Below are positions 13,919 to 36,835 of a DNA stretch of 64,000 nucleotides, piece by piece. The stretch's first letter is position 1, and the number at the start of each line of letters is the position of its first letter. Location of the stretch: contig JAJDNW010000100.1 of the NCBI GenBank assembly GCA_022340465.1, positions 1 through 64,000 of the forward strand, given 5' to 3'. The notes under the pieces were generated by a model, which saw only the letters and a list, made by a program, of their open reading frames with translations, had not been told where the DNA came from and did not search any database. The DNA comes from Deltaproteobacteria bacterium (GTDB taxonomy: Bacteria; Desulfobacterota; Desulfobacteria; Desulfobacterales; B30-G6). A program made the position numbers and the translations under genes.

Positions 13919-13988
13919 GCATCCTCTCTTTGAGTTTCTGAATTCTGACCTCTGACCTCTGCTTGTTACCATACCTGCCCCTCGCAGC

Positions 13989-14004: not shown

Positions 14005-14109
14005 AAAAACATATTTTTTTATTTATAAAATCAAATCAAGGAGATAGTTAAATCTGCGATCTGAACTCACGCGCATCGGCATCCGGAAGTAGCAATAATT
14101 CTATGCGTA

Positions 14110-17022: not shown

Positions 17023-17267
17023 CGTCTCTTTCCCATGCGGCATTGCGCATTTAGGGCACACAGATTCCCCAGCGTTGGGGTCACCTCCTGCTTGAAGGTG
17101 ATGCTGCCGTCATATCGATTGCCTTAAGTCTGTTCCGGGCTGAAGAGGTCGTCCCTTATATTTTCCGGCAACCACTCTAACCACACAACCCTGTGAGAGC
17201 TCGCATACCGTTAAACTTGTATCTCAGGCGGCTCTCCTTTTCAAGCCGGGGGCTGTTCGGTCGTCGA

Positions 17268-17756: not shown

Positions 17757-17814
17757 TGTAATGCTCCTTGTCAGTTGGGTTTCACCATCACCCGGCAACC
17801 TTCCTCAGGGTGAA

Positions 17815-18501
17815 TCAGTGCTCCAGCTTCAACCCCCAGCCTTCGAACATGAACATGACGGCAAATCCATACCACAGGGTGTACACCACATAGAATACCA
17901 GGGAAAGGGTGACCACCCCCATGCTGCCGCCTATTTTTTTGGCCTCGATGCCGAAGTAGTTATAGGAACATTCCAGCGCTTTTTTCTCCACCAGGGCGAC
18001 CATTTTAGCTTCCTTGAACTGCTTTCCGGCTTTGAGACCCTTGTCCATCAGCTTGAAGGCGCTCCACCAGTTGTAGATCACCTGCTTGCCGCTGTAACCG
18101 TATTTTTGCTGAAGCGTCTCGGAATCATTGCCGTACATGGCGTCGGCATCGTCCAGGCAGCTTTCGATAATGCGGCCCAGATCACCCGCTACGTGTAAGG
18201 ATTCACCGTTGATTTTCACCCGGGCTCCGGCTGCCTCGTACAGCTTCGCGCTTTGGGCGGCCGCCCGGTCCGAAGGCATTGGCAGCGTGAGATCTACCGT
18301 TTTCCCGGCAAAGGCGCTGTTGGCTTCCCGCACTTCGGGAATGTAGTAGGCCGACCCCTTTGAAATGGAATTGTACAGCGCATCCAGGTACTCCAATCCG
18401 TTGTTCCCTTTAAAAACAGGCAGAAAAATGACAATCAGCACCGCGATGAATCCCACCATCATGGCCAGGCCCGTGTAGAATTCTTTTTTATTGGCAATCA
18501 T
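17815..18501 (-). CDS. Conserved two-TM membrane protein coupled to TSUP permease
   Basis: The ~228-residue protein starts MIANKKEFYTGLAMMVGFIAVLIVIFLPVF (TM1 near 9-29). A ~140-residue hydrophilic, probably periplasmic domain follows, with CLDDADAMYGNDSETLQQKYGYSGKQVIYNWW-like helical text. A second membrane segment lies near 190-213 (MGVVTLSLVFYVVYTLWYG). I do not recognise the family. Its ATG overlaps the TSUP stop as ATGA, and the fixed coupling suggests an accessory subunit of the transporter. Confidence 0.8.
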   Translation of the reverse strand: MIANKKEFYTGLAMMVGFIAVLIVIFLPVFKGNNGLEYLDALYNSISKGSAYYIPEVREANSAFAGKTVDLTLPMPSDRAAAQSAKLYEAAGARVKINGESLHVAGDLGRIIESCLDDADAMYGNDSETLQQKYGYSGKQVIYNWWSAFKLMDKGLKAGKQFKEAKMVALVEKKALECSYNYFGIEAKKIGGSMGVVTLSLVFYVVYTLWYGFAVMFMFEGWGLKLEH

Positions 18502-19784
18502 GCGTCCACCCCCTCTCCCTTCAGGACGTTGATGTTTTTGAAAAACGTGCCGACGACCCAGACACCGAAGCCGCCGATGACCACAAAAAAGGCCCACACA
18601 CCGATGGTTTCGAGAACGGCGCCCGTCTGTTTGGAAAGTGGAATGACGCCCATATCGGTCAGCTTTGCGGGCAGGGCGAAGATTCGATTCATGAAGCCCG
18701 CCAGCACCGCCATGGCGTAAAAACCGCGAATGGTGATGCCGGGAACGACCTTGGTAACCATGGCCCCTATCTGAATGCCCAGCAACGATCCCAGCAGCAT
18801 TCCGATCGCCAGGGTGTAAAATATGAACCCGTAAACGGCATACTGGCTGATGGCCGCATAGCCGGCGGTAAAAACAATCTGAAAGATGTCGGTGCCCACG
18901 GTGGTCATGGATGACACCCCGAGCACATAAACGAAGATCGGGAACGTCAGAAAGCCGCCGCCGACCCCCATGATACCGGCTGCCAGCCCCACCAGAGCTC
19001 CGGAAAGCACTAGAAAAACCCACGAGATTTTGCGCCCCTGAGGCGTCAGATCGAAATCGAACCTGATCATGGGGGGGAGATTGAGGGCCTGCAGCTTTTT
19101 AGGCAGGCTGCCGATTTCGGCCCCTTCCGATTTGGCACCGTGGAAGTCGCCGCTGTCGCTGGACTTGCGTGCCTTGAGAAAATCGATCATGGCGTAAAGG
19201 CCCAAAAAGCCGAGCATCAGGGAATAGATGGTGGTAATGAAGGCATCGCTTAAAACGGGATTGATTTCATAAAGCACTCGATTGATGATCCCGCCGACGG
19301 TGGCCCCGATAATCGCCCCGATTAAAAAGACGGCCGCCAGCGGCACCGATACATTGCCCAGTTTGCGATGGATGACACTGCCCATGATCGCTTTTGCAAA
19401 AATATGAAACAGGTCCGTCCCTACGGCCAGGATACCCTTGATGCCCGCACTCATCAATGCCGGCGCGATAATGAAGCCGCCGCCGGCACCGATACAGCCG
19501 GTTATCAGACCGGCGCCGAGGCCGATCAGGATGGACACCAGAAAGATGGCATTGGTGTAGAATGCCGGGCTGTACGCCTTTTTCCCCCCGAGAACCTCCG
19601 GAAGCACACCGCCGGCATCGCCGGCCAGGACGAACCCGCCCAGGATGATCGGAAGCGTCAACAGGCCCAGGATGAGCAACCGCTTGCGGTCACGCAAAAT
19701 GGTGAAGGCCGTGTCGATTTCCCATCGGGCATGGGCGCGTGCCCCCATCATCATGAACTTACCCCACTGTTTTAAAAAATTCAT
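18498..19784 (-). CDS. TSUP (TauE/SafE)-family anion permease
   Basis: The 428-residue inner-membrane protein has about nine membrane segments and the duplicated TSUP repeat. One half has GLITGCIGAGGGFIIAPALMSAGI near 96 and the other has GLAAGIMGVGGGFLTFPIFVYVLGV near 270. TSUP proteins move sulfite, sulfate, sulfonates or related anions; direction and substrate are not readable. It has an unusually long N-terminal cytoplasmic stretch. It lies between its kinase (upstream, 37 bp) and an accessory membrane protein (overlapping), a sensor-transporter-regulator operon. Confidence 0.93.
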   Translation of the reverse strand: MNFLKQWGKFMMMGARAHARWEIDTAFTILRDRKRLLILGLLTLPIILGGFVLAGDAGGVLPEVLGGKKAYSPAFYTNAIFLVSILIGLGAGLITGCIGAGGGFIIAPALMSAGIKGILAVGTDLFHIFAKAIMGSVIHRKLGNVSVPLAAVFLIGAIIGATVGGIINRVLYEINPVLSDAFITTIYSLMLGFLGLYAMIDFLKARKSSDSGDFHGAKSEGAEIGSLPKKLQALNLPPMIRFDFDLTPQGRKISWVFLVLSGALVGLAAGIMGVGGGFLTFPIFVYVLGVSSMTTVGTDIFQIVFTAGYAAISQYAVYGFIFYTLAIGMLLGSLLGIQIGAMVTKVVPGITIRGFYAMAVLAGFMNRIFALPAKLTDMGVIPLSKQTGAVLETIGVWAFFVVIGGFGVWVVGTFFKNINVLKGEGVDA

Positions 19785-19821: not shown

Positions 19822-21558
19822 CTAAGCCGATTCTCCGTTGTCGCGGATCGGAAGAGATATAGTGAATGAACTTCCTTGTCCCTTCATGCTTTGGGCCACG
19901 ATCGACCCGCCCAGGGCCTCGACAATACTCAAGGAAACACTCAGCCCCAGGCCGGTTCCCCTGCCGACCTCCTTGGTCGTAAAAAAGGGATCGAATACTT
20001 TTTTTATGTCCGACTCGGACATCCCCGTGCCGGAATCACGGATGGTAATCTCAATCTTATCCTCCCGGGAATGGGTCACGATCGTGATTTTTCCGGTATC
20101 TCCGATGGCATCGCCGGCATTGTTGATGATGTTCAAGAAAACCTGTCGAATCTGATCTGCATCCAGGAGTGTCTGGGGAAGGTCGGGATCGTAGTCGCGA
20201 ACGATTTCGATGTTGGCGACCTTGAATTCGCACGCCTTGACACCGTCGATGACCTCGTCCAGGATGGCGTTGACATTGCAGAGTGACAGGCTGGGTTTGT
20301 AGTCATGCCCGAAATCGAGCAATTGCCGCGTAATTTTACCTGCCCTGAAAGCGGCCGACTCGATGATGTCGATCTCCTTGATGATCTTCTCCGGTTCAGC
20401 GTCCATACCGAATTCCGGATCGAGCATATCCCGGATCACGCCGCTGGTGGAAGTGATGATGGCCAAGGGATTGTTGATTTCATGCGCCACGCCTGTGGCC
20501 AGTTCACCGATAGAGGCCAGTTTGGAGGCATGGAGGAGCTGTGACTGCAGGTTCTGACTTTTCTCCAGGAGCACACGATGGCGGTCCACCTGCTTTTTCG
20601 TCAGCAGCACGATAATGAAACCGGTGACACCCAGTAGAATGACCAAACTGGTCATCATGATTTTACGTGCCTGATACATCTGTTCATGGGCGATGGCAAA
20701 AGGCTGCCGGACCAGAAGCGCCCAATCGGCTTCCTTGAGCCAGGTGTAGGCGATCAGGATGTCGTCGCCCTCGATTTTCATTTCAGTGACGCCGGCGCCG
20801 CTGTTTTTCGGAGGGATGAAGGCGCTCATGCCCAAAAGCGGCCCCCGGTCGGGATCCACAATCTGGTAGCGGCCATCGGCGTTGATCAGTGTGGATTCAA
20901 CCCCTTTGCCATGACTCAAGGTTCTCAGAAACATGTAGAACTTATCGGGATCCAGCGTGGAGCGCATGACGTGCCACCTTCCGTCGATAAGTTGCTTGGT
21001 AGCGATGGTGAAATGAGGTTTGTTCCTGAATCCCAGGTAGATGTCACTGATGTAGTAGTCGCCCGCCTGGCCCATGAGGGTTTGAAACCACTGCTCCCTG
21101 CTGTAATCCTTGCCCTGCAGATAAGGAAACGGACCGGCATAGCCTATTTGAATCCCGTCGGCACTGAGAAACCCCACGTCCATGAAAGCGTCGCTGACCT
21201 GGCGCAAAAGCTGAAGATAGTTGCCCATCTCGAGGCTGCCGGGATGGATGCTGAACTCCCGGCTGTGAAACAGGTTGAAGAGGTTTACCACTCTTTCCTG
21301 AAGAAACAGATCGATGGTGTTGCCCTGGCTTTCGGAAAGAGCCGCCAGATTGAGCTTGTCCGTTTTTGTAAGTGAGTCGGTGAACTGGATGTGAAAGTAG
21401 AGGGTAAAAAGCGCGTGGGGCACAATGAAGATGGCGATCAATCCGGCGATCAACCGGATGCGCATCTTCTTGAAATAGCGATCCTCCAGTGAACCACCGG
21501 GAGCGGCAACCGTCCCTTCCTTGTTTTCAACCGCTTCACCCTCGTTTCTCGTTTTCAT
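19822..21558 (-). CDS. dCache-type transmembrane histidine kinase
   Basis: The ~578-residue kinase has TM1 near residue 36-56, a periplasmic double-Cache sensor (SADGIQIGYAGPFPYLQGKDYS, DYYISDIYLGFRNKPHFTIA), and TM2 near 285-305. The H-box is [16 protein letters not shown] near residue 358. The HATPase has NIINNAGDAI, DSGTGM and GRGTGLGLSVSL. The same Cache signature (YxGPF..Y, YISDxxLGxRxxPHF) recurs in the kinases at 32485 and 39545 and in the split sensor at 56963. The start at 21558 (MKTRNEG) is chosen from the GGGATGGGTG context. A sigma-54 promoter is 48 bp upstream. Confidence 0.94.
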   Translation of the reverse strand: MKTRNEGEAVENKEGTVAAPGGSLEDRYFKKMRIRLIAGLIAIFIVPHALFTLYFHIQFTDSLTKTDKLNLAALSESQGNTIDLFLQERVVNLFNLFHSREFSIHPGSLEMGNYLQLLRQVSDAFMDVGFLSADGIQIGYAGPFPYLQGKDYSREQWFQTLMGQAGDYYISDIYLGFRNKPHFTIATKQLIDGRWHVMRSTLDPDKFYMFLRTLSHGKGVESTLINADGRYQIVDPDRGPLLGMSAFIPPKNSGAGVTEMKIEGDDILIAYTWLKEADWALLVRQPFAIAHEQMYQARKIMMTSLVILLGVTGFIIVLLTKKQVDRHRVLLEKSQNLQSQLLHASKLASIGELATGVAHEINNPLAIITSTSGVIRDMLDPEFGMDAEPEKIIKEIDIIESAAFRAGKITRQLLDFGHDYKPSLSLCNVNAILDEVIDGVKACEFKVANIEIVRDYDPDLPQTLLDADQIRQVFLNIINNAGDAIGDTGKITIVTHSREDKIEITIRDSGTGMSESDIKKVFDPFFTTKEVGRGTGLGLSVSLSIVEALGGSIVAQSMKGQGSSFTISLPIRDNGESA

Positions 21559-21605
21559 CACCCATCCCGCTCCGTGAGTTGAAGACAGCCTGCAGCCAAT
21601 CAAAT

Positions 21606-21836: not shown

Positions 21837-23210
21837 CTAGAATTTTTTCAACCGATAGCGAAAGGTGTGCAGGTTCATGTTCAGGAGTCTGGCCGCCTGG
21901 CTTTCATTGCCTTCGGCCATGGCAAGGGCCGTTTTGAGATAGTGCTCCTCGAAGGCTCGCTGAAGCTCCGGGAAATCAATGCCTTCTTCAGGAATCGGTG
22001 GGTAGGGATCGGGGGTTTCCGCCGGGGTGGGTTGGCTGCCGGCGGTCTCCATCCCCAGGTCCTGAAGCGACAGTTCCGGCCCCTGCCCGATGAGGGCGCC
22101 CCGTTCGATCATGTTTTTCAGCTCGCGGACATTGCCTGTCCACCGGTAGCCGACCAGGGCCTGTTCCGCCTCGGAATCGATCCCGGTAAACCGCTTGTCG
22201 AACTTGTGGCCGTAGTGCTCCAAAAAATGCTTGGCCAGGGGCATGATGTCCCCGGGGCGTGCCTTGAGGGCCGGCACTTCCAGCTTGATGACGCCCAACC
22301 TGAAATAGAGGTCGCTTCTGAAGGTTCCCTGCTCGATCATGGCGTCGATATGCTTGTTGGTGGCAGAGATGACCCGGGTCTGGATGACCTGTTTCCGGGT
22401 GCCGCCGACCCGGTAGTATTCTCCGTTTTCAAGAAAGCGCAGGAGTTTTGCCTGGGCCTCGAGATTCAAGTCCCCGACTTCATCCAAAAACAGGGTGCCG
22501 TTGGCGGCGTCTTCAATCAGGCCCTTTTTCCCTGCAGGGCCCGCACCGCTGAAAGCGCCTTTCTCATAGCCGAAAATTTCACTTTCGATGAGATCCCTGG
22601 GTATGGCTGCGCAGTTGACCGTCACCAACCGCCCCCTGTAGTTGGGGCTGCGGTAGTGCAGTGCCTCGGCCAGCAGCTCTTTTCCCGTCCCGGTTTCGCC
22701 AAGAATCATGACGGGCGTATCCGGGCTTTTCGCCACCCGGCCCAAAAAACTCATCATGTCCTGAATTTCATCGCTTTCACCGATAAAGCAGGGCAGGTTC
22801 TCCTCGATATAGCGTTCCTGAAGGTCCCTGACCTCCTTGCGCAGACGGATGGTGTCCAGGGCGTTTTTGATTGTCACCTCCAGGGCATCCATCTGGATCG
22901 GTTTGACAATGTAGTCATAGGCGCCGGTTTTCATGGCGGAAATAACGGTGTCGACCCCTTCGTAGGCGGTAATCATAATGGCCAGCAGGTCCGGGTGCAG
23001 GCGCTTCATGATCTTGAGCGCTTCTATACCACCCATACCCGGAAGACCGATATCCAGCAGAACCAGGTCGGGCAGTTCACCGGGAAGGGCTGCCAGCGCG
23101 CTTTCGGCATCACAAAACGTCGCCACCCGATAATCGCTTTCAAGAGCCGATGCCAGGCCTTTGCAGATGATCTCTTCGTCATCGACGACAAACAGCGAAT
23201 AAGGCTTCAT
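21837..23210 (-). CDS. NtrC-family sigma-54 response regulator (GAFSGA variant)
   Basis: The 457-residue activator has a receiver (FVVDDEEII, LVLLDIGLPGMGG, MITAYEG, IVKPIQ). The AAA+ domain has Walker A GETGTGKE, GAFSGAGPAG as the sigma-54 contact loop and Walker B GTLFLDEVGD, and the arginine-finger region RWTGNVREL is present. A Fis-type HTH ends the protein (ALAMAEGNESQAARLLNMNLHTFRYRLKKF). It is very close to the activator at 14133, sharing the GAFSGA variant and HTH, so the two may read similar sites. It follows its kinase by 11 bp. Confidence 0.95.
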   Translation of the reverse strand: MKPYSLFVVDDEEIICKGLASALESDYRVATFCDAESALAALPGELPDLVLLDIGLPGMGGIEALKIMKRLHPDLLAIMITAYEGVDTVISAMKTGAYDYIVKPIQMDALEVTIKNALDTIRLRKEVRDLQERYIEENLPCFIGESDEIQDMMSFLGRVAKSPDTPVMILGETGTGKELLAEALHYRSPNYRGRLVTVNCAAIPRDLIESEIFGYEKGAFSGAGPAGKKGLIEDAANGTLFLDEVGDLNLEAQAKLLRFLENGEYYRVGGTRKQVIQTRVISATNKHIDAMIEQGTFRSDLYFRLGVIKLEVPALKARPGDIMPLAKHFLEHYGHKFDKRFTGIDSEAEQALVGYRWTGNVRELKNMIERGALIGQGPELSLQDLGMETAGSQPTPAETPDPYPPIPEEGIDFPELQRAFEEHYLKTALAMAEGNESQAARLLNMNLHTFRYRLKKF

Positions 23211-23221
23211 TAACGCTTCCT

Positions 23222-25246
23222 TTACATGGAATCCGTGCGGTCATATTGCCGCTGACGGATAGGTATTTTGACCGTAAAAACGGCCCCCCCCCATTCACTG
23301 GTCCCGGCATCCAGCGATCCGCCGTGATCCGTAATAATGCGGTGACAGATGCTGAGTCCGATGCCGGAGCTGTTGTCTTTGGTGGTGTAGAAGGGGTCGA
23401 AAATGTTGGCCATGATCTGTTCGGCGATCCCCGGGCCGGAATCGCTTACGGTAATACAGATGGAATCCCCTGCCGGCCGCGTGGTGATTTTGATCTTTTT
23501 CTCTGCCGTCATGGAGGCCATGGCTTCCGATGCATTGGCGATCAGATTGAGGATGACCTGTTCGATCATGTGAGGATCCGAGCGACAGGGCGGCAGATTC
23601 GGATCCAGATCCGCTTCGATGCGAATGCCCTTTTTATTGAGCGTCAGCGATGAAAGATCGACGGCTTCCTTCACAGGCAAATTGATTTCCGTCAAAACAA
23701 ATGCCGGCTCCCCCGGTCGGGAAAAGTCCATGACCCGTTTGATTACGGCTTCGATCTTGTTGGAGGCCAGTTGAAGTTGAGACAAAATACCGGTGGACTC
23801 CTCGGCATGCTCAGTGTTTGAGCACAATTTATTCAGCGTTTTCAGATAGATATTAATTCCCGATAGCGGATTCCGGATCTCGTGGGCAATTCCGGCCGCC
23901 ACCCGACCCAGCGACGTCATCTTGTCCTTGATCCTTAGCAGCTGCTCGAGTTCCTTGGCGCGTGAAATGTCCATCAAGTTCAATAGGATGGCCTCTTTTT
24001 CACGGTGTTCGATCCTGCAAACCCGGCAGTGAAGCCATCTGAAATCGAAGGCGGCATCGGTGTCCCCCCGGCGGCCGAACCTGAATTCGATGTCGGTCCT
24101 CGGCAGGCACTCCCTTGTAAAATCGGATATCGTGCGCTCGACACGCCCGAGGTCATCCGGGTGGATCAGTTCCGAATTCGGCGGAATCAACAGGTTCACG
24201 TCTGAACCGAAAATCCGTTCGTATTCCGGGTTGCTGTAGACGATCCGGCCGTTCTGCACAATGGAAATGCACGTCAGTGAATTTTCCACCAGGTTGCGGA
24301 AGCGCCGCTCGCTGTTCTCGAGCGCCCTGCGGTCTCTTTTACGTTCGATAATTTTTCCCATGCGCAGAGCTGCCGCTTGCAGAAGCTGCGCCTCTTCTTT
24401 ATGAAAGACGCCGATGGTATCGAACGGACGCTCCTCCAGGTAGCCCACCTCCAAAAGGCCGATGGCTTGATCGTCGACATGGATAGCCCGGGAAAGATGC
24501 CAGTCGGTGCGACAATAGTTTTTCGTCTGATAGGTAAAATCTTCCAACTGGATTCTGGCCCAGGCAATCTCGGGATACTGCATGGCCTCCGGCAGCATGT
24601 CGACGCCGCCGCTCAGGATCTCCTCCAAACCGATCTTTGGTTTTTCCACAAGCTTGGAAAAGGAAAACAGATAATTCAACTCATTGACCCGTTTTTCAAG
24701 GGCGGCATCCGCCCTGCGATGGGCCTCTTCCCGCTTGAGCCTGTGAATGCCAAAGGCGACATCACCCGCTATTTCATCGATAAGCGCCCGCTCCACATCG
24801 TCCGAAACCAGCTCCTTGGGAATCGAGATACACAGCAGACCATATACCCCCCCCCCGTGCATCAAGCGCACCGTGGCCACCCCCCACCCGCTGTGGGCCT
24901 TTGACAACGGACAGACACCGCAGGCTTTGGACGGATTCTCCACCCACACCATCTCCTGCCGGGACAAGGCCTTGCGGATACAGGGAATCGTCTCTTTCGG
25001 GCTGCCGGAAGTTACGGCGGCTTCGAAGTCACTGCCGATCCCCGCTTCGGCACAGGATTCGGGTTCTCCGTCATCATTCAGCAGGATGATCCAGGCCTTG
25101 TCGTAGGTGCGGCTCCTGATCAGCTCACGGCAGACGGCCTTCAGCATCGGGCCAAGCGCCTCCTCCCGGATCAGCAACCGATTGATTTTTCGGATGGTTC
25201 TAAGGGCGTCATTCAGGTGCTCGATTTTTGATACGTTCATTGCCAT
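23222..25246 (-). CDS. Cytoplasmic GAF-GAF-PAS histidine kinase
   Basis: The ~674-residue kinase lacks membrane segments. An N-terminal GAF domain covers about 10-170 and includes a CGVC pair (ACGVCPLSKAHSGWG), typical of GAF domains in this lineage and a possible redox or metal site. A second GAF covers about 190-320 and a PAS about 330-460 (RFRNLVENSLTCISIVQNGRIVYSN). The H-box is VAAGIAHEIRNPLSGINIYL near 490 and the HATPase has NLIANASEAM, DSGPGI and NSSGIGLSICHRI. The start is ATG at 25246 or 25240; no clear ribosome binding site. It pairs with the NtrC protein downstream. Confidence 0.93.
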   Translation of the reverse strand: MAMNVSKIEHLNDALRTIRKINRLLIREEALGPMLKAVCRELIRSRTYDKAWIILLNDDGEPESCAEAGIGSDFEAAVTSGSPKETIPCIRKALSRQEMVWVENPSKACGVCPLSKAHSGWGVATVRLMHGGGVYGLLCISIPKELVSDDVERALIDEIAGDVAFGIHRLKREEAHRRADAALEKRVNELNYLFSFSKLVEKPKIGLEEILSGGVDMLPEAMQYPEIAWARIQLEDFTYQTKNYCRTDWHLSRAIHVDDQAIGLLEVGYLEERPFDTIGVFHKEEAQLLQAAALRMGKIIERKRDRRALENSERRFRNLVENSLTCISIVQNGRIVYSNPEYERIFGSDVNLLIPPNSELIHPDDLGRVERTISDFTRECLPRTDIEFRFGRRGDTDAAFDFRWLHCRVCRIEHREKEAILLNLMDISRAKELEQLLRIKDKMTSLGRVAAGIAHEIRNPLSGINIYLKTLNKLCSNTEHAEESTGILSQLQLASNKIEAVIKRVMDFSRPGEPAFVLTEINLPVKEAVDLSSLTLNKKGIRIEADLDPNLPPCRSDPHMIEQVILNLIANASEAMASMTAEKKIKITTRPAGDSICITVSDSGPGIAEQIMANIFDPFYTTKDNSSGIGLSICHRIITDHGGSLDAGTSEWGGAVFTVKIPIRQRQYDRTDSM

Positions 25247-25312
25247 GCGATAAGGTTCGACCCTTTCCAAAGATGCGGCCGCTTTGATTAATTTTATAAA
25301 ATGAATGGCATC

Positions 25313-25332
25313 GTTTTGAAATTTTTCTAAAC
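25313..25332. promoter_or_regulatory. Perfect palindromic enhancer candidate (type B)
   Basis: GTTTTGAAATTTTTCTAAAC is a near-perfect 20-bp dyad of form GTTTnGAAAnnTTTCnAAAC. It lies between the divergent kinase (25246) and receiver (25549) genes, about 155 bp upstream of the sigma-54 promoter at 25476-25491. Confidence 0.6.
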
Positions 25333-25475
25333 GTATATATAAAATCCGGATGAATGGCAAGCCGACCAGTCACTTCCCGGTCATGTTCGGTAACCATTGC
25401 CAACAGGGGTATCAATAGGCTATCCTGTTGAAACAAAAGGAAGTAACCCTCAAATCGGCCTCTCTTTCCCAATTA

Positions 25476-25491
25476 AGGCATGCTTATTGCT
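25476..25491 (+). promoter_or_regulatory. Sigma-54 promoter for the RR/PEP-synthase-like operon
   Basis: AGGCATGCTTATTGCT has GG and GC 12 bp apart; only the first T of the -24 box differs. It lies 58 bp upstream of the receiver gene start. Confidence 0.65.
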
Positions 25492-25548: not shown

Positions 25549-25974
25549 ATGGAACCTTTTACCGTTGTTTTCGTGGACGACGAAGCCGATTATGTGGAAT
25601 CGCTCATCAAGCGGATGCGCCGGCGCAACATCCAAGCCTATGGCGCCGGAAGCGGCGAGGCCGCCCTCACCCTGCTGGCGGACAAGCACCGGGAGATCGA
25701 TGTCATCGTCCTGGACGTACGCATGCCGGGCATGGACGGCCTGGCCGTACTGAAAGAGGTCAAAAAGCGCCATCCTTTGATAGAAGTGATCATGCTGAGT
25801 GGGCATGCCAACCTGGCCGTGGCCAAAGAAGGTATGGAAATGGGCGCCTTCGACTATCTCATGAAACCCGTGGATCTCGATGAACTGCTCTACAAACTCC
25901 AGGATGCCCATCAGAAAAAAAGCCTTCAGGAATCCAAGATCGCCGGACTCGAACGGGCCAAAACGATGCCATGA
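25549..25974 (+). CDS. Response regulator (receiver only)
   Basis: The 141-residue protein is a receiver with FVDDEADYV, IVLDVRMPGMDG, MLSGHAN and LMKPVDL, plus a short helical tail. No output domain. ATG at 25549 follows AGAAGGAG. Its TGA overlaps the ATG of the PEP-synthase-like gene (ATGA), so the two are coupled. The receiver is therefore likely to control, or be controlled with, that enzyme-like protein. Confidence 0.92.
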   Translation: MEPFTVVFVDDEADYVESLIKRMRRRNIQAYGAGSGEAALTLLADKHREIDVIVLDVRMPGMDGLAVLKEVKKRHPLIEVIMLSGHANLAVAKEGMEMGAFDYLMKPVDLDELLYKLQDAHQKKSLQESKIAGLERAKTMP

Positions 25975-28571
25975 CCTTCTTGAACAGACTATACCGGCGG
26001 ATCACAGGCGAGCCGAAGCGCAAGCCGCAAAGCGATGTCGAAGCGCTGCGCATCGCTTTCAAGACCCGCTATAACGCCTTCAAACGCCTGCTGGCGTCCA
26101 ACCGAAAGGCCATGGACATCATGGCGGATATCGAATTGCGCCTGGCCGCCGACCACCCGTTTGGCATGTCTTTTGTGCGCGGCAGCGCGACCGGCGTTTC
26201 CGTCAATGTTCTTAAAATGATCCGCCTTCTCGCAGAGCTGTCTCCAGGAAAGTTTCCCGGATTGAAACCACGCTTCGAGGAAATCAACAATCAGATCCAG
26301 GGACTGATGACCAGCCGTAAACGGCCCTCCGACACACGCCTTATCGTGGATTTTCAAGACATGGATGCAGCGGCGGCCGACGTTGTCGGCAATAAAATGG
26401 CCCATCTGATCGAAATTAAAAATCATCTCGATTTGCCGACCCCGGAAGGCTTCATCATCACGGCGGCGGCGTATGAACGCTTGGTCCATGCAAACGACCT
26501 CCAGGCCGAAATCGATCGGCGCTGCCAATCGGCGGATACCGCCCACATGGACCGCCTCCACGCCCTGAGCTCGGAGTTGCAGCAACTGATCATCCGCTCC
26601 CGCGTGCCCGATGAGATTCGCGAAGCCGTCATCAACGCCCATGCCGACCTCCTGCGCCGACGAGGCCCTGCCACGACCGTGGCACTTCGCAGCAGTGCCA
26701 TGGGTGAGGATTCGGAGGGAACCGCCTTTGCCGGACAGTACCGCAGTGTTCTCAATGTCGGCGCCAACAGCCTGCTGGATGCCTACAAGGAGGTGTTGGC
26801 AAGCAAATACACCCTGCAAGCCATGGCGTACCGATTGAATCTGGGCATTCGCGATGAAGATGTTTCCATGAGTGTCGGCTGCCTCGAAATGGTAAATGCG
26901 TTTTGCGGAGGGGTCGTCTACAGCCGCAGCCCGGTCAGCGTGGAAGATGATTCCATTTTTATCAACGCGGCCTGGGGATTGCCCAAATCCGTGGTGGACG
27001 GCAGCGGCGGTTTCGATGCCATCGTCGTTTCCAGGAGACCCTCCCTATCCATTCTTCGCATGGAACCGGGCCACAAGACCCACAAGCTGGTCTCCTTCCC
27101 GGAAGAGGGCCTGCGCCGGGTCAAATTACCGGACCGTCTTGCAGACAATTTGTCCCTAACCCCTGAGCAGGCTTTGCAGCTGGCTGAAATAGCGATGGAA
27201 ATAGAATCCTACTACCAGGCCCCCCAGGATGTCGAGTGGGCCATCACCGCCGAAGGCGCCGTCTTCATTCTCCAATGCCGCCCCCTTCAGCAAATGCAGA
27301 TGGCGCCATCGGCGCCCTTGCCGTCTGCTTTTACCAGCGGGGGAAATGCCCTTTTCAGCGGAACAGGGGTTACCGCCAGCTGCGGTGTGGCCGGCGGAAC
27401 GGTTTTTCAGGTGAACAAAAACATGGACATGCTCCAATTCCCCCAAGGTGCGGTTCTGGTGACGAGGCAGGCACTGCCCGCCTGGGCCCCCCTGTTGAAC
27501 CGGGCCGCCGCGGTGATTACCGAAACAGGCGGCTTTGCGGGACACCTGGCCAATGTTGCCCGCGAGTTCGGTGTGCCCGCTCTCTTTGGCGTCAGCGGAG
27601 CCATGGACCGCTTGGCCAACGGACGCCTGGTCACCGTGGATGCAGACCGCAGAAGCATATATCCGGGCAAACCCGAGGTCATGCCGGATAGACCGGGGAA
27701 AAACCCGAGTCGAATTGTTAGTTCACCGGTCTATACCACGTTGCAAAAAATCAGCCGCCTTATCGTGCCCTTGAGCCTGCTGGACCCCTCGGCACCTGAA
27801 TTCACGCCGGACAACTGCAAAAGCCTGCATGACATCACCCGCTTTGTGCATGAAAAGTCGGTTCACGAAATGTTCAATTTCGGCAAGTCCCACCATTTTT
27901 CTGAACGGTCGGGCAAGCAGTTGCACTACAACGTACCCATGCAGTGGTGGATTCTCAATCTGGATGACGGATTCGTGCATGAAGTCCACGGTAAATATGT
28001 CAAGCTGGAAAATATCTGCTCCATTCCCATGCTGGCCTTCTGGGAAGGATACACCGCCGTGGCCTGGGACGGACCGCCGCCGGTGGACGGCAAGGGGCTC
28101 ATGTCGGTCATGTTCCGCTCCACCATGAACCCGGCACTATCCACGGGGGTGAAATCGAATTACGCGGAACGCAACTATTTCATGATTTCGAAAAACTTCT
28201 GCAGCCTTAACTCGAGGTTGGGATACCATTTTTCGATCATGGAAGCGCTGGTCGGTGATCGGATCACCGAAAACTATGTCAGTTTCCAGTTCAAGGGCGG
28301 CGCGGCGGACCAGGGCCGCCGCTACCGCAGGGTGGCCTTCATCGGCGACATTCTCGAGGAGCATCATTTCAGGGTCGAAATCAAGGAAGATCATCTGGCG
28401 GCCAGGGTGGAAGGCGACACCCGCAGTTTCATGATCGAGCGCCTTAACATATTGGGGTATCTGGCCCTGCACACCCGTCAGTTGGACATGATCATGGCCA
28501 ACGGAGCCACGGTGGAGCATTACAGAAACAAGATCCACCGGGATTTGGAAAAAATCATCCACGGCACCTAA
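25971..28571 (+). CDS. PEP-synthase-like protein (PPDK N-domain + phosphohistidine domain + unknown C-terminus)
   Basis: The 866-residue protein has an N-terminal region of ~110 residues of unknown role. A PEP/pyruvate-binding ATP-grasp domain covers about 135-435 (VVGNKMAHL, TTVALRSSAMGEDSEGTAFAGQY, VEWAITAEGAVFILQCRPLQ). The swivelling phosphohistidine domain is at about 490-570, where GGFAGHLANVAREFGVPALFG keeps the catalytic His (H525). The TIM-barrel PEP/pyruvate domain of true PEP synthases is absent; residues ~590-866 are a different domain that I do not recognise. It could phosphorylate its own His from ATP and pass phosphate to another acceptor (inference). Coupled to a receiver gene. 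Confidence 0.85.
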   Translation: MTFLNRLYRRITGEPKRKPQSDVEALRIAFKTRYNAFKRLLASNRKAMDIMADIELRLAADHPFGMSFVRGSATGVSVNVLKMIRLLAELSPGKFPGLKPRFEEINNQIQGLMTSRKRPSDTRLIVDFQDMDAAAADVVGNKMAHLIEIKNHLDLPTPEGFIITAAAYERLVHANDLQAEIDRRCQSADTAHMDRLHALSSELQQLIIRSRVPDEIREAVINAHADLLRRRGPATTVALRSSAMGEDSEGTAFAGQYRSVLNVGANSLLDAYKEVLASKYTLQAMAYRLNLGIRDEDVSMSVGCLEMVNAFCGGVVYSRSPVSVEDDSIFINAAWGLPKSVVDGSGGFDAIVVSRRPSLSILRMEPGHKTHKLVSFPEEGLRRVKLPDRLADNLSLTPEQALQLAEIAMEIESYYQAPQDVEWAITAEGAVFILQCRPLQQMQMAPSAPLPSAFTSGGNALFSGTGVTASCGVAGGTVFQVNKNMDMLQFPQGAVLVTRQALPAWAPLLNRAAAVITETGGFAGHLANVAREFGVPALFGVSGAMDRLANGRLVTVDADRRSIYPGKPEVMPDRPGKNPSRIVSSPVYTTLQKISRLIVPLSLLDPSAPEFTPDNCKSLHDITRFVHEKSVHEMFNFGKSHHFSERSGKQLHYNVPMQWWILNLDDGFVHEVHGKYVKLENICSIPMLAFWEGYTAVAWDGPPPVDGKGLMSVMFRSTMNPALSTGVKSNYAERNYFMISKNFCSLNSRLGYHFSIMEALVGDRITENYVSFQFKGGAADQGRRYRRVAFIGDILEEHHFRVEIKEDHLAARVEGDTRSFMIERLNILGYLALHTRQLDMIMANGATVEHYRNKIHRDLEKIIHGT

Positions 28572-28664: not shown

Positions 28665-30134
28665 ATGTGGAATAAGCTGACATTGAGGGGCAAGGTAATG
28701 GGAATGCTCGGCACGCTCATGGCCCTGACCCTTTTGGGGGGAGCGGTACTCATCGGGTACACCTATCGCATCGAGGATCTTTTCCTGGAGGTAACCGAAA
28801 AGGAACTGCTCGCTTATCAATCCGCCGAAGCACTGGCGACGTCGCTGGTAAACCAGAAGGGTTTCGTTTCCTATTACTTCATGGACGGGGACCCGGACTG
28901 GCTCAGACAGCTGGGAGAATACCGCCAGATCTTCAAGGGGCGTCTCAAGGAAGCCCGAATCTATTCGGAGGATGAAAACGAAAGGAGCCTTCTGGACACC
29001 ATTGCCAGGGAAAATAGGCGTTTCGTCCAGACCCAGGATATCGTTATCTCCCATTATGAGGCCGGGCAGCGCAAAGCCGGCGAAACGCTGCATCACGAAG
29101 CCCGCAAGGACTTTTTCCAGATTCTGGAACACTGCGCCTTTTACAAGGACCTCAGAAAAGAAAAAATCATGGGCGCCAAGGAGGCCAATCAGGCACTTGC
29201 CCGCCGTCTGCGGATTTCAGCGGTGAGCGGCATCATGGCTTTCCTCCTGGTGGGGTTTTTACTGGCCGCTTTTCTGATCCGGGAAATTCTGCAGCCCATC
29301 CGCAGGCTGGCTCTGGAAACCGGTGAGCCGGAACAGTCCGTCGGATCCAAGAACGTTGTCCAGAGCTTGAGTCTCAGGATTCACGACCTGGTGCAGGATT
29401 ACAATCAAACCTCCGTCCACCTTGAGAAAAGCCGTGCCCACCTCCTCCAGGCCGAAAAAATGGCCATGGTCGGAAAGCTCGCCGCGGGAATGGCGCACAG
29501 TATCCGCAATCCCTTTACATCGGTCCAGATGCGCCTTTTTTCATTGAAGCGCTCTTTGGAAATGGACCCGGTGCAACAGGAGGACTTCGACGTCATCGCC
29601 GAAGAAATTCAGCATATCGATACCATCGTGCAGAATTTTCTCGAATTTTCCCGAACGCCTAAAATGAAAATCCAAACCGTCAGTCCCTCCACCATCGTCG
29701 ACAACACCCTGCAGCTCTTGAAACATCGCCTCAATTCCTATGATGTCACGGTTAAATTGACCCGTGAGGAGCCCCTTCCGAAGGTCCAGGCCGATTCCGA
29801 GCAGATCAAGGAAGTGCTTATCAACATCATCATCAACGCGTGTGAAGTAATGAACGCCGGCGGCTCGATAACCATTTGCGAGGAGGCCGTCGGAGAGCCC
29901 GGGGAACAATCGGCGGTGATTCATCTGACCGACGATGGTCCGGGCATGCCCGCCGCGGTCAGCGAAAAGGTGTTCGACCCCTTTTTCACCACCAAGGAGG
30001 AAGGTACGGGCCTGGGTCTCAGCATTGTCAAACGCATCATCGAAGAGCACGGGGGCAGTGTATCCCTTGTCTCCAGCGAGGGAGGCGGGACGACTTTCAC
30101 CATCGACATCCCTGTCGAAGGAGGCATTCGTTGA
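28665..30134 (+). CDS. Transmembrane histidine kinase with AHSIRNP H-box
   Basis: The 489-residue kinase has TM1 near 13-33, a helical periplasmic domain of ~145 residues rich in charged helices (four-helix-bundle-like), and TM2 near 188-210. The dimerisation helix is KLAAGMAHSIRNPFTSVQMRL near residue 275. The usual Glu after the phospho-His is Ser. The HATPase is intact (NIIINACEVM, DDGPGM, EGTGLGLSIVKRI). Its TGA overlaps the TTG start of the NtrC gene, so they are a coupled pair. It follows the PEP-synthase-like gene by 93 bp. Confidence 0.92.
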   Translation: MWNKLTLRGKVMGMLGTLMALTLLGGAVLIGYTYRIEDLFLEVTEKELLAYQSAEALATSLVNQKGFVSYYFMDGDPDWLRQLGEYRQIFKGRLKEARIYSEDENERSLLDTIARENRRFVQTQDIVISHYEAGQRKAGETLHHEARKDFFQILEHCAFYKDLRKEKIMGAKEANQALARRLRISAVSGIMAFLLVGFLLAAFLIREILQPIRRLALETGEPEQSVGSKNVVQSLSLRIHDLVQDYNQTSVHLEKSRAHLLQAEKMAMVGKLAAGMAHSIRNPFTSVQMRLFSLKRSLEMDPVQQEDFDVIAEEIQHIDTIVQNFLEFSRTPKMKIQTVSPSTIVDNTLQLLKHRLNSYDVTVKLTREEPLPKVQADSEQIKEVLINIIINACEVMNAGGSITICEEAVGEPGEQSAVIHLTDDGPGMPAAVSEKVFDPFFTTKEEGTGLGLSIVKRIIEEHGGSVSLVSSEGGGTTFTIDIPVEGGIR

Positions 30135-31573
30135 ATAAAATTTTAATCATCGATGATGACGATCAACTGCGCAAAAGCTTCGAAAGGTTGTTGCGTGAAG
30201 AAGGCTACAAGGTCAGCAGCGCCCCGTCGGGGGAAACCGGAATCCGCATGATCGAGGAGGCCTGTCCGGATCTCGTTATCGTCGATGTTCGCCTCCCGGG
30301 CATCAACGGGCTGGAAACATTCAGGACTATCAAAGAGATTGAAGCCAAGCTGCCGGTCATCATCATGACGGCTTACGGCTCCACGGAGACCGCCATCGAG
30401 GCCACACGCCAGGGAGCTTTCGACTACGTGCTCAAACCCTTCGATATCGACGAAATGCTACGAATCATCAGGCAGGCCTTGGATGCCGGGCGCTTCATGC
30501 GCTATGCCGTGGATATGGACGCCGCTCCGGGGCAGATCGAAAAGGATGCCATCATCGGCCGCAGCGAAGCAATGCAGGCAGTCTACAAGGCTATCGGGCG
30601 CGTGGCGGTTACCGATGCCACCGTTCTCATCCGGGGAGAATCCGGCACCGGCAAAGAACTGATCGCCAGAGCCGTGTATCAATACAGCCGAAGGGCGGAA
30701 AGGCCCTTCCTGGTGATCAACTGCGTGGCCATTCCCGAAACCCTCCTGGAAAGCGAACTGTTCGGCTATGAAAAAGGAGCCTTTACGGGTGCGGCTCACC
30801 GGCGTATCGGCAAAATAGAGCAGGCCAACGGTGGAACCATTTTCCTGGATGAAATCGGCGACATGCCCTTGAGCCTGCAAGCCAAGATATTGCGGCTGCT
30901 TCAGGAAAAGAGCATCGAGCGCCTCGGCGGCAGACAAACCATTCCGGTGGACGTCCGCATCATCGCGGCCACCAACAGGGACCTGGAGGCATCCATAGCG
31001 GAGGGAACGTTCAGGGAAGACCTCTACTACCGCCTCAAGGTGATTACCATATGGCTGCCGCCGCTGCGGGAAAGGGCCGCCGACATTCTCCTGTTGACCA
31101 ATTACTACCTGACGCGCTACGCTGCCGAGTTGGGTCTGAAAAATCCCGGGATCACCGAAAAGGCCCTGGACCTGCTGTCTGCCGGTGCCTGGCAGGGCAA
31201 CATCCGCGAGCTTGCCAACATGATTCAAAAAATGCTCATCTTCAATCGCGGTGCCCCCATAGATAAAGAGGATGTCGTCCTTGCTTCGAGCGGAATGCAG
31301 CCGGCTGCCGAAGCCGCTCAGAACAGCAGCCTGGAAAACGAAATCAGAATATGGGTCCAGGAAGCTGTCAAGCGGGGCGACCGCCAGCCCATTTTTGAAA
31401 GCAGCATGGATAAATTCGCCGGCATCGTGCTCAATGAAGTTCTGACCATAACCCAGGGAAACCGTTCCCAGGCCGCTAAAATTCTGGGGCTCTCCAGGCC
31501 GACGCTGCACGCCAAAATTGAAAAATACAACCTCCAAATCGAAACCATGGTAAAAAAGATGACACCTTCGTAA
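30131..31573 (+). CDS. NtrC-family sigma-54 response regulator
   Basis: The 480-residue activator starts with TTG at 30131, behind AAGGAGG, overlapping the kinase stop. The receiver has LIIDDDDQL, VIVDVRLPGING, MTAYGST and LKPFDI. The AAA+ domain has GESGTGKE, the canonical GAFTGA loop, GTIFLDEIGD and QGNIRELAN. The C-terminal Fis-type HTH is ITQGNRSQAAKILGLSRPTLHAKI. Unlike the two activators on the minus strand it keeps GAFTGA. Its targets cannot be read. Confidence 0.95.
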   Translation: MNKILIIDDDDQLRKSFERLLREEGYKVSSAPSGETGIRMIEEACPDLVIVDVRLPGINGLETFRTIKEIEAKLPVIIMTAYGSTETAIEATRQGAFDYVLKPFDIDEMLRIIRQALDAGRFMRYAVDMDAAPGQIEKDAIIGRSEAMQAVYKAIGRVAVTDATVLIRGESGTGKELIARAVYQYSRRAERPFLVINCVAIPETLLESELFGYEKGAFTGAAHRRIGKIEQANGGTIFLDEIGDMPLSLQAKILRLLQEKSIERLGGRQTIPVDVRIIAATNRDLEASIAEGTFREDLYYRLKVITIWLPPLRERAADILLLTNYYLTRYAAELGLKNPGITEKALDLLSAGAWQGNIRELANMIQKMLIFNRGAPIDKEDVVLASSGMQPAAEAAQNSSLENEIRIWVQEAVKRGDRQPIFESSMDKFAGIVLNEVLTITQGNRSQAAKILGLSRPTLHAKIEKYNLQIETMVKKMTPS

Positions 31574-31788: not shown

Positions 31789-32223
31789 ATGGGCGCTGGT
31801 ATTCCTATGGTCCGTTCCCACAAGCAGCATCTGATATTGATTGCCGACCGCAACCCCCGTGTACGAGGCTATCTGAAACGCGAAATGCAGCAGGCAGGCT
31901 ACGAGGTCAAACTCGCCGCCGCCTGCCGGGAGGTCATTGAAGCGTTAACCGTTTACCCGAAAATCGCGGGCATTATCATCGATCCCGATCTACCCGGTGC
32001 GGAAACCGATGCCCTGCGGAAAATGGTAACATCAGACCCGCATCGGATACCCATCATCATTCACTCCCTGTTGGAACAAAGTAAACCGGACTTCTTCTTC
32101 TGTCCGGAAGAAATCATCGTCGAAAAGGGCGGGGCCAGCGCCGAGCAGCTGAAGCAGGTCCTCTACCGTCTTTTTGGAAGGAGCCGCCCGTCGGAGCGGT
32201 TGTCAGCCAACCATCCCGTTTAG
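31789..32223 (+). CDS. Divergent receiver-like protein
   Basis: The ~144-residue protein resembles a receiver: LIADRNPRVRGYLKREMQQAGYEV at the N-terminus, the putative phospho-acceptor in GIIIDPDLPGAE, IIIHSLL, and a Lys in IIVEKGG. Of the acidic pair only one Asp remains (ADRN). The start may be 31789 or 31807; neither has a strong ribosome binding site. It lies alone between the NtrC gene and the next sigma-54 promoter. It may be a weakly phosphorylated or pseudo-receiver. Confidence 0.7.
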   Translation: MGAGIPMVRSHKQHLILIADRNPRVRGYLKREMQQAGYEVKLAAACREVIEALTVYPKIAGIIIDPDLPGAETDALRKMVTSDPHRIPIIIHSLLEQSKPDFFFCPEEIIVEKGGASAEQLKQVLYRLFGRSRPSERLSANHPV

Positions 32224-32449: not shown

Positions 32450-32484
32450 TTTTTTGAAACCAGCAACCGCTTCCAGGAGTGTAT

Positions 32485-34212
32485 ATGATCGTCAGTTCAG
32501 CTAAGAAGAAGGAATACGCATCCATCAACCGCACCGTTCTCACCAGCATGATTCTGGTGCCCATGATTCCCTTTACCCTGATTTTGTGCATCGGGTTCAT
32601 TCACTTTAGATCCTCGATTCAAACCGGCACCACGACCAACATGCAGCGCATCGTGGAAGACCACTGTCAGCTCATCGAAGCCTTTCTTGAAGAACGGCGC
32701 TCGGATCTCGAATTGATTGGCAACGCTGTCCCCTTCGAGGAACTGCGGCAGCCCACCAAGCTCCGCTCCATATACGACCACATGCAGAAAGTTTCGCAGG
32801 CCTTTGTGGACATAGGCGTGTTTGACGAAAACGGCACGCACCTGGCCTACCATGGCCCCTACAACCTGGAAGGAAAAAATTACCGGGATGCCGACTGGTT
32901 CAAAGAAGTCCTCGACCGGGGATATTACATCAGCGACGTGTTTTTAGGGTACCGGCATGTGCCTCATTTTGTGATAGCCGTTGCCCGCCGGAACACGAAA
33001 AACACCTGGGTCATCCGGGCCACCATCGACTCTCAGCTGTTTCAGACGCTTGTCGACAAAATCAGGATCGGCGATACGGGCGAAGCCTATATCATCAACC
33101 GCCAGGGGGTGCTGCAGACCCGGCGCAGGTCCGGCGGTGACCTTCTGCAAAGCGTCGAACCGCCGCCGGGTGCATCCCTTTCCGGCCGACAGACCGAATC
33201 ACACCTGTACCAGGATCAAAGCGGCATCGACTTTCTCTATACGGTCACGCGGCTCAAAACCAAGACATGGTACCTGGTCGTGCGCCAGGAAAAAAAGGAT
33301 GCTTTCAGGGCGCTGCGTTCAACCGCGTTCATCATCACCGTCATCGCCGTTGCCGGCGGCCTGATCATTATCCTGACCGCCGTATACCTCACCGGACGCA
33401 TTGTCTGGCGTCTCCAACGCATCGATACGGAAAAAGAGCAACTCAACCAGCAACTGGTGGGGGCCAGCCGCCTGGCCGAACTCGGCGAAATGGCCGCGGG
33501 TTTTGCCCATGAAATCAACAATCCCCTCCAGATCATCAGCAACGAACACGTGCTCATCGAAATGGGAGTCGATTCGTTGCGGGAAAGCTGCGCCGATCAG
33601 GAACAGGAAGCGTTTCAGGAAATCAGCGAATCTTTGTCACAGGTCAAGCTTCAGCTTTCGCGCTGCGCCAGGATAACCCAGGCCATACTCAAGTTCGGCC
33701 GCCAGGGAGAGCCGACCTACGAGGATATCGATTTAAACGCTTTCGTTCGTGAAACCACGGCCATTGTCGCTCAGAAAGCCCGCGTGAACGGCATTCTGCT
33801 CAAAGAAAACATCATGACCGACAGGGCCGTCATCCACGGGGATGCCTCGCAGCTTCAGCAGGTGCTCCTGAACCTCTACAACAACGCCTTCGACGCCATT
33901 GCAAGCAAACACGGGACGTCCGGCGGCATGCTGTCTGTGGAAACCCTGAAAAAAGATCGAGGCATGGTGGAAATCCGCGTGCAGGACAACGGGTGCGGGA
34001 TCCGCAAGGAAGATGCTGCCAAGGTGTTTTCACCCTTCTTCACCACCAAGCCGGTGGGACAAGGAACCGGCCTCGGACTTTCGGTCTGCTATGGCATTGT
34101 CCAGAAAATGAACGGCAGCATGGAGGTCGAAAGCAGTCCCGGAGCCGGCGCGACATTCATCATACACCTGCCGATAACGTCGGCCGGAGGAAAAAGCAGG
34201 CACGGGGGATGA
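32485..34212 (+). CDS. dCache-type transmembrane histidine kinase
   Basis: The ~575-residue kinase has TM1 near 20-40, a double-Cache periplasmic sensor (VFDENGTHLAYHGPYNLEG, YYISDVFLGYRHVPHFVIA), and TM2 near 280-302. The H-box is [17 protein letters not shown] near residue 341. The HATPase has NLYNNAFDAI, DNGCGI and GQGTGLGLSVCYGI. ATG at 32485 follows CAGGAG; an in-frame GTG lies 6 nt upstream. First gene of a long same-strand block with two DASS permeases; the receiver gene starts 1 bp after its stop. Confidence 0.95.
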   Translation: MIVSSAKKKEYASINRTVLTSMILVPMIPFTLILCIGFIHFRSSIQTGTTTNMQRIVEDHCQLIEAFLEERRSDLELIGNAVPFEELRQPTKLRSIYDHMQKVSQAFVDIGVFDENGTHLAYHGPYNLEGKNYRDADWFKEVLDRGYYISDVFLGYRHVPHFVIAVARRNTKNTWVIRATIDSQLFQTLVDKIRIGDTGEAYIINRQGVLQTRRRSGGDLLQSVEPPPGASLSGRQTESHLYQDQSGIDFLYTVTRLKTKTWYLVVRQEKKDAFRALRSTAFIITVIAVAGGLIIILTAVYLTGRIVWRLQRIDTEKEQLNQQLVGASRLAELGEMAAGFAHEINNPLQIISNEHVLIEMGVDSLRESCADQEQEAFQEISESLSQVKLQLSRCARITQAILKFGRQGEPTYEDIDLNAFVRETTAIVAQKARVNGILLKENIMTDRAVIHGDASQLQQVLLNLYNNAFDAIASKHGTSGGMLSVETLKKDRGMVEIRVQDNGCGIRKEDAAKVFSPFFTTKPVGQGTGLGLSVCYGIVQKMNGSMEVESSPGAGATFIIHLPITSAGGKSRHGG

Positions 34213-34213
34213 C

Positions 34214-34663
34214 ATGGAAGATCTGAAAATCATGCTGGTGGACGACGAGGAGCGTTTCCTGGAAACCACCAAAAAAATTTTGACCAAAAGGGGATACCAC
34301 GTGGAGACGGCCTCCAGCGGCGTCGAAGCCCTGGAGAAGCTGCGCACCACCCCGGCCCAGGTGGTCATTTTGGACGTCAAGATGCCCGGTATGGACGGCA
34401 ACCAGACCCTGGTGGAGATCAAAAAGCTCTTTCCCATGGTGGAAGTGATCATGCTCACGGGGCACGCCACCGTTGAATCGGCCATCGCCGGGTTGAAGTC
34501 AGGAGCCAGCGACTACCTGATGAAGCCTGCCGACATCGGTGAGGTGATCCAGAAAGCCGAAGAAGCCTTTGTACGGCGTCAGAATCTGGAATCCAAAATT
34601 CGAGTGGCCCAGATGCGCCGGCTGATGGGGTCCCCCAGAGAGATTATAGAGACATCCGACTGA
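34214..34663 (+). CDS. Response regulator (receiver with tail)
   Basis: The 149-residue protein has receiver motifs [28 protein letters not shown] and LMKPADI. The ~30-residue tail RRLMGSPREIIETSD resembles that of the regulator at 17268 (GESPREILQSL). No DNA-binding domain. It directly follows its kinase and precedes the DASS gene, so it may act on transporter activity by contact and not on transcription (inference). Confidence 0.93.
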   Translation: MEDLKIMLVDDEERFLETTKKILTKRGYHVETASSGVEALEKLRTTPAQVVILDVKMPGMDGNQTLVEIKKLFPMVEVIMLTGHATVESAIAGLKSGASDYLMKPADIGEVIQKAEEAFVRRQNLESKIRVAQMRRLMGSPREIIETSD

Positions 34664-36799: not shown

Positions 36800-36835
36800 A
36801 ACACGGCGAACCACCCTTTGAAGGAGATATTCAAA

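Follow-up and report, generated by a model that had tools for sequence, protein, structure and literature searches.

Phosphoenolpyruvate (PEP) synthase (PpsA; TIGR01418) and rifampin phosphotransferase (RPH) both use an ATP-grasp domain to phosphorylate, from ATP, a histidine on a swivelling domain. PpsA pairs these domains with a PEP/pyruvate barrel, whereas the dikinase RPH has an acceptor domain that is not a barrel. Acceptor domains have also been exchanged in the phenol-type dikinases HpeHI, CreHI and PpsAB, members of the same superfamily that are split over two proteins, act on aromatic acceptors and belong to a catabolic context (PMC12167813). A swivelling phosphohistidine domain is likewise present in enzyme I of the phosphotransferase system (PTS) and in PTS-Ntr, where it forms part of a regulatory phosphotransfer chain. 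Here we describe PPSL, a PEP-synthase-like protein encoded together with a single-domain receiver in a 64,000-nucleotide stretch (hereafter, the window) of contig JAJDNW010000100.1 from a Deltaproteobacteria bacterium of the Desulfobacterales (assembly GCA_022340465.1). PPSL carries a new C-terminal domain in place of the barrel, is the founding member of a so far uncharacterised, unnamed family nearly confined to sulfate- or sulfite-respiring bacteria, and probably helps turn on the uptake of sulfur compounds.

PPSL is collinear with PpsA through the ATP-grasp and swivelling-histidine domains (~28% identity over that part), but it lacks the PEP/pyruvate barrel, has new N- and C-terminal domains and scores far below the family cut-offs, with PEP synthase models giving 313.6 bits against a cut-off of 739.75 and 320.5 against 598 (~40-55% of the cut-off) and aligning only up to residue ~570. 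The regulatory threonine that lies two residues before the histidine of PpsA is absent (A523). The ATP domain alone matches that of RPH with a Foldseek TM of 0.88 (target-normalised), whereas no sequence or fold match was found between the acceptor domains of the two proteins, the close match of the full-length model to RPH covering the ATP domain only. The acceptor domain of RPH sits between the ATP-grasp and histidine domains, and the C-terminal domain of PPSL follows the histidine domain. PTS enzyme I takes its phosphate from PEP via a barrel; PPSL has an ATP-grasp domain and no barrel, and only the swivel domain matches enzyme I (E 0.002 or weaker), not the HPr-binding helical domain that accompanies it there. 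With such good precedent for acceptor-domain exchange (RPH, HpeHI, CreHI, PpsAB; PMC12167813), the chemistry of PPSL is a variation on a known type, and the novelty lies in its acceptor domain and its regulatory context.

The preliminary description of this locus, made from the letters alone, had proposed an ATGA overlap between receiver and PPSL, ATP-grasp and phosphohistidine domains with H525 kept, a sigma-54 promoter and an adjacent pair of genes for a histidine kinase (HK) and an NtrC-type activator, all of which were borne out. The receiver ATG at 25549 is preceded by GAAGGAG, its residues D11/D56/S84/K106 are intact, and its stop TGA (25972-25974) falls within the ATGA at which PPSL starts (25971). 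All key residues were present by Pfam and residue check, H525 being the swivel histidine within TETGGFAGH. The promoter-like site at 25476 agrees with the consensus at 11 of 12 positions, and the window holds more sites of this kind than expected (11 observed vs 2.4 expected; 0 of 100 shuffles reach 11), four further ones lying near other gene starts of the surrounding island (13989 and 21606, minus strand; 31660 and 32434, plus strand). HK and NtrC genes occur on both flanks. AlphaFold modelled full-length PPSL with a pLDDT of 89.9 and a pTM of 0.84, and the fold matches of this model were PEP synthase, RPH and pyruvate phosphate dikinase (PPDK); the carrier domain had a TM of 0.72 to its counterpart in PPDK, the phosphoryl carrier domain 2fm4. 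Pfam searches gave no match for the N-terminal domain and no HisKA or HATPase domain in PPSL.

The preliminary description had also placed an unrecognised 270-residue domain where the barrel should be, and named structure prediction as a check and alignment to a degenerate barrel as grounds for rejection; neither prediction nor alignment found a barrel. Pfam detected nothing in residues 571-866, even when these were searched alone, and no PEP-utilizers_C match; in the C-terminal part of 93 relatives it found no credible family (best E 0.009). A PDB sequence profile search gave a best E of 0.15, which is chance level, and NCBIfam no match. AlphaFold2 modelled the domain from 93 sequences (pLDDT 85.9, pTM 0.76) as helices leading into a run of four strands, then one helix, a hairpin of two strands and finally two long helices, which is not a (beta-alpha)8 topology. 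Foldseek against the PDB and viral models returned no match at E <= 0.001 and only scattered weak ones; those to YbjN/type III chaperone-like folds (probability up to 0.66, root-mean-square deviation 10-17 A) were not used. Alignment with hhalign to the barrel of the PPDK encoded in the host genome gave a probability of 0.7%, against 99.6% for the N-terminal control. The domain appears to be a new acceptor domain for the dikinase superfamily. An alignment of 74 full-length members revealed a polar, enzyme-like set of invariants (H620 D621 R624 H627 E628 G693 H753 N768 G777 R787 D807 G829 D839), with C616 nearly invariant.

A scan of GTDB species genomes yielded at least 558 stretches encoding relatives, the best 80 of them mostly from Desulfobacterota, with few from Nitrospirota and one from a Myxococcota metagenome-assembled genome (MAG). 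The host genome itself encodes two further full-length paralogues (32% identical over full length), and these, together with the hundreds of relatives elsewhere, exclude chance as the origin of the layout. The 120 full-length members extracted share the helical N-terminal domain, the ATP-grasp and histidine domains and the invariant C-terminal set. K142, R240, E422, Q435, R437 and H525 are kept in nearly all members (H525 in 110/120), and conservation is stronger still in the C-terminal domain than in the ATP-grasp/H525 columns. The ten copies with R or Q for H525 are second paralogues of Desulfovibrio plus one from a Deltaproteobacteria MAG, and two other copies have lost ATP-grasp residues; together these 12 degenerate copies keep 47% of the conserved ATP-grasp positions vs 89% of the C-terminal ones. 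Because the C-terminal set survives where ATP-grasp residues are lost, this domain appears to be the constant functional core of the family. Nine of the ten copies lacking H525 sit in Desulfovibrio in arrays of the type PPSL(dead)-HK-REC-PPSL(active), REC being a receiver. In nine loci, mostly from Desulfovibrio (L014:1287-3908, L016, L017, L020, L022, L023, L028, L029 and L072), the second copy has R for H525, a ruined ATP site and an intact C-terminal set with an active copy nearby, and looks like a pseudoenzyme partner.

The C-terminal domain was found in 110/296 Desulfobacterota genomes, with a mean of 3.2 matches per carrier and up to 8 (fragments may inflate these numbers), and nearly every occurrence listed lies in an open frame of ~850-1000 codons, the size to be expected of a fusion with the dikinase half. 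Unusually long frames, perhaps further fusions, were seen at G076:C8:405813-406688 (1838 codons) and G179:C67:12698-13570 (1232 codons). With dsrA and aprA called by curated cut-offs, 108 of the 110 carriers had dsrA, 103 aprA and all 110 at least one of them, whereas none of the 148 Desulfobacterota genomes lacking both genes carried the domain (Fisher P ~1e-44 for dsrA and ~1e-52 for aprA, in tests that ignore phylogeny). The converse is weaker, as 38 genomes with dsrA have no PPSL. In a second phylum, that of a Nitrospiraceae MAG (L011), dsrA was present in 31/35 carriers vs 24/83 non-carriers; in two further carriers dsrA is split.

The gene context of the family is one of signalling and anion transport. 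In a set of 80 PPSL loci, 66 have a receiver, HK or NtrC gene, and in 42/123 members the gene next to PPSL on the same strand encodes a receiver, usually less than 50 bp away and usually a single domain of 120-150 aa. These counts agree with the signalling context that the preliminary description had claimed and with the co-occurrence it had suggested checking. Its further claim, that the system does not serve gluconeogenesis, also held: the host genome encodes an ordinary PPDK with its barrel (L006), a complete protein that retains the CGICGEHGG motif, so that PPSL is dispensable for PEP formation, and PPSL matches are multiple per genome. The preliminary description did not mention the conserved helical N-terminal domain, the anion transporter genes nearby, the almost exclusive association with dissimilatory sulfur metabolism, the degenerate copies within the family or the mutants already described for the syntenic Desulfovibrio cluster. 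A TauE/SafE or DASS transporter gene lies within 37 of the 80 loci (mean flank ~8 kb), where the gene density of the host genome (7 TauE and 4 DASS matches over cut-off in 4.39 Mb) predicts 2-3%. Other recurring neighbours encode universal stress proteins (USP), CBS-domain proteins and dual-specificity (DSP) phosphatases. Context follows the tree: TauE-C5-PPSL-HK characterises the clade of the window protein, other arrangements being TauE-TIGR02186-PPSL-REC-USP (L003), DASS-PPSL-HK-REC and PPSL-DSP phosphatase (L002, host genome). Here C5 denotes a conserved ~228-aa membrane protein encoded between TauE and PPSL in at least 20 loci and matching no Pfam family. In one subfamily a dual-specificity/tyrosine phosphatase, perhaps an antagonist, is encoded directly 3' of PPSL (L002:4039-4491, L047:8561-9652, L098:347-1426). 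Locus L134 packs three DASS symporters, receivers, two HKs and one PPSL into 16 kb and resembles the downstream arm of the window.

A genetic lead comes from mutants of Desulfovibrio vulgaris and D. alaskensis in a poorly annotated cluster (DVU0251-DVU0245 / Dde_0597-0605) that grow in inhibitory nitrate (Korte et al. 2014; PMC4001038). The D. vulgaris cluster comprises TauE (DVU0251), a hypothetical gene (0250), PtxB (0249), an HK (0248), a receiver (0247), DVU0246, annotated as 'pyruvate phosphate dikinase, PEP-utilizing mobile domain', and a DSP phosphatase (0245). Insertions in 0251, 0250, 0247 or 0246 allowed growth in 100 mM nitrate as without nitrate, whereas the phosphatase mutant 0245 stayed inhibited; a leaky thiosulfate transporter was suggested, G20 mutants growing mildly poorly on thiosulfate, and no specific role was proposed for the PPDK-like gene (PMC4001038). 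The same seven genes in the same order (TauE-hyp-PtxB-HK-REC-PPSL-DSP) were found in locus L133, whose genome belongs to the same family as D. piger, and in shortened form in L127-L129 and L047. At these loci the dikinase gene is PPSL including the C-terminal domain, and that of the published cluster has no annotated barrel (PMC4001038). Judged by gene order, the cluster would belong to the phosphatase-linked subfamily, like L002 of the host genome, and not to the clade of the window copy. A single phenotype on loss of the putative PPSL (DVU0246), receiver or permease fits a need for PPSL and receiver in permease function. Searches of the literature for DVU0246, DVU0247, DVU0251 and the Dde locus names found no explanation beyond that of Korte et al. 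As a separate matter, C5 was considered as a counterpart of the hypothetical gene of the cluster, and no similarity was found.

Taking these data together, we consider it somewhat probable that PPSL is a phosphohistidine enzyme that depends on ATP, has a new acceptor domain and, together with the receiver, is needed for a sulfur-oxyanion transporter to function. Judging from the conserved residues and from homology, the ATP-grasp domain would phosphorylate H525 from ATP, probably with release of AMP and Pi, and H525~P would then swing to the C-terminal acceptor domain, which stands in place of the pyruvate barrel. PPSL, the single-domain receiver and the linked HKs would act as a positive effector of the oxyanion permease encoded nearby (TauE/SafE or DASS), and the uptake of sulfur oxyanions could thereby answer to kinase signals, perhaps also to the adenylate state. 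A regulatory role is supported by the gene context and by the published mutants of the syntenic cluster; from these we infer control of PPSL by the receiver and its positive action on the permease. Adenylate sensing is speculative, suggested by the USP and CBS proteins of the island and by the fact that dikinases make AMP.

Several points weigh against this reading. No transporter is encoded near PPSL in 43 of the 80 loci (many of those contigs are short), and the association with dsrA and aprA was computed without regard to phylogeny. Only gene order and domain annotation connect DVU0246 with the family; the shared nitrate phenotype could be polar, since all genes of the cluster may form one operon, pooled and single-mutant data disagree for DVU0250, and DVU0245 and its G20 homologue behave differently (PMC4001038). 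We found no biochemistry for any PPSL member in the literature. The ten members lacking H525 cannot transfer phosphate by the H525 route, and the common function of the family may lie in the C-terminal domain alone.

A broader form of the proposal, which we put forward as a tentative possibility, is that PPSL represents a third phosphohistidine signalling route beside HKs and the PTS: an ATP-driven dikinase would pass phosphate from its swivelling histidine to its C-terminal domain or to a partner (receiver, permease or accessory protein), with the DSP phosphatase as antagonist in one subfamily, tying the uptake of respiratory sulfur acceptors to kinase signals and adenylate status. On the other hand, PPSL could be a small-molecule kinase whose C-terminal domain binds a metabolite, perhaps one imported by the permease, the two-component genes only regulating expression. 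The barrel-less dikinases characterised so far and met here do act on small molecules, RPH on rifampin and HpeHI/PpsAB on phenols (PMC12167813), the invariant C-terminal set looks enzyme-like, and transporter genes adjoin PPSL; but the surroundings of PPSL hold no other conserved genes of catabolism or biosynthesis, its multiplicity per genome (3.2 on average) and the receivers within its operon look regulatory, and degenerate copies with no ATP site still keep the C-terminal set. We regard this explanation as unlikely. The same degenerate copies, with their disparity between ATP-grasp and C-terminal positions (47% vs 89%) and the placing of nine of the ten H525-less ones in arrays of dead and active copies, would suit a regulator that mainly binds a ligand or partner, with a C-terminal domain that senses a nucleotide or oxyanion and a dikinase half that is a dispensable modulator; this we regard as improbable, and the near-invariance of the ATP-grasp residues and H525 in the great majority of members indicates that catalysis is under selection. 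That PPSL is a divergent PEP synthase with a degenerate C-terminal barrel, as its best named relatives might suggest, is largely refuted by the predicted secondary structure, the hhalign comparison and the lack of a barrel among fold matches and of a PEP-utilizers_C match, and we give it hardly any credence.

If PPSL acts on oxyanion permeases as proposed, it would bear on the first step of a major process of the global sulfur cycle, sulfate uptake. Little is known of the transporters for this step or of how they are controlled: a D. vulgaris strain without three annotated sulfate permeases is still able to reduce sulfate (PMC7531388). The family is an unnamed, multi-copy one whose distribution follows that of dissimilatory sulfur metabolism almost perfectly and whose genes lie beside those of candidate transporters. 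The nitrate cluster has so far had no explanation, and the model makes both cluster and family directly testable, with a bearing on the control of souring by nitrate. The third signalling route, if true, would amount to a general layer of control over dissimilatory sulfate reduction.

The window itself contains such a signalling and transport island, spanning about 12-42 kb (Table 1). Between 12113 and 41678, about six HKs, three NtrC-type activators and several receivers surround one TauE and two DASS genes. TauE and C5 lie on the opposite strand, 6-8 kb from PPSL, and the second arm holds two DASS symporters, a receiver-CBS protein and further HK and REC genes. Some DASS proteins of sulfate reducers are transporters induced at low or high sulfate (PMC5840216), and the D. 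autotrophicum DASS cluster HRM2_38230-38300 is expressed at low sulfate.

Table 1. Receiver-PPSL gene pair, PPSL domains and neighbouring genes of the island (window positions).
Feature	Position	Strand	Evidence
CBS-domain protein, tandem	12113..12811	-	CBS 1.1e-29
Universal stress protein	13409..14005	-	Usp 3e-31
Second HK (15514-17061) + NtrC (14133 to about 15510) pair	14133..17061	-	ORF translations
Single-domain receiver	17268..17798	-	ORF translation
C5-family membrane protein (usually between TauE and PPSL in this clade)	17815..18438	-	hmmsearch 1.3e-105
TauE/SafE permease	18498..19784	-	TauE 2.7e-37
HK, sigma-54-like site just upstream (21606-21621)	19822..21603	-	ORF
NtrC-type sigma-54 activator	21837..23210	-	Pfam
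GAF-PAS HK, divergent	23222..25360	-	Pfam
Sigma-54-type -24/-12 promoter-like site AGGCATGCTTATTGCT	25476..25491	+	11/12 consensus positions
Single-domain receiver (CheY-like), 141 aa, phospho-acceptor D56	25549..25974	+	Pfam Response_reg 2.3e-26
PPSL, 866 aa	25971..28571	+	ORF, Pfam; AlphaFold full length
PPSL N-terminal all-helical domain, residues 1-120, unannotated, family-conserved	25971..26330	+	helices 20-59, 66-90, 98-114 (model)
PPSL ATP-grasp domain, residues 137-445	26379..27305	+	PPDK_N 7.8e-85; K142 R240 E422 Q435 R437 kept
PPSL swivelling phosphohistidine domain, residues 490-560, H525	27438..27650	+	PEP-utilizers 1.7e-19
PPSL new C-terminal domain, residues 571-866	27681..28568	+	conservation; AlphaFold pLDDT 85.9; no Pfam, PDB sequence or fold match
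HK	28665..30134	+	Pfam HisKA, HATPase_c
NtrC-type sigma-54 activator, TTG start overlapping HK stop	30131..31573	+	translation: receiver + GESGTGKE Walker motif
Weak receiver-like protein	31789..32223	+	Response_reg 2.7e-5, below Pfam cut-off
HK	32479..34212	+	ORF translation
Single-domain receiver	34214..34663	+	ORF translation
DASS/SLC13 anion symporter	34749..36602	+	Na_sulph_symp 1.3e-44
Receiver fused to CBS domains	36818..37738	+	Response_reg 6.7e-32, CBS 6.2e-10
DASS/SLC13 anion symporter	37755..39407	+	Na_sulph_symp 3.1e-35
dCache HK	39545..41200	+	dCache_1, HisKA, HATPase_c
Single-domain receiver	41217..41678	+	Response_reg 2.2e-29

The true start of the universal stress protein is probably internal, because a sigma-54-like site (13989-14004, minus strand) covers the 5' end of the ORF listed. 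The receiver-CBS fusion encoded between the two DASS symporters is a possible adenylate-reading response regulator. A further gene of the TauE/SafE family lies near the end of the window (62486-63214, plus strand).

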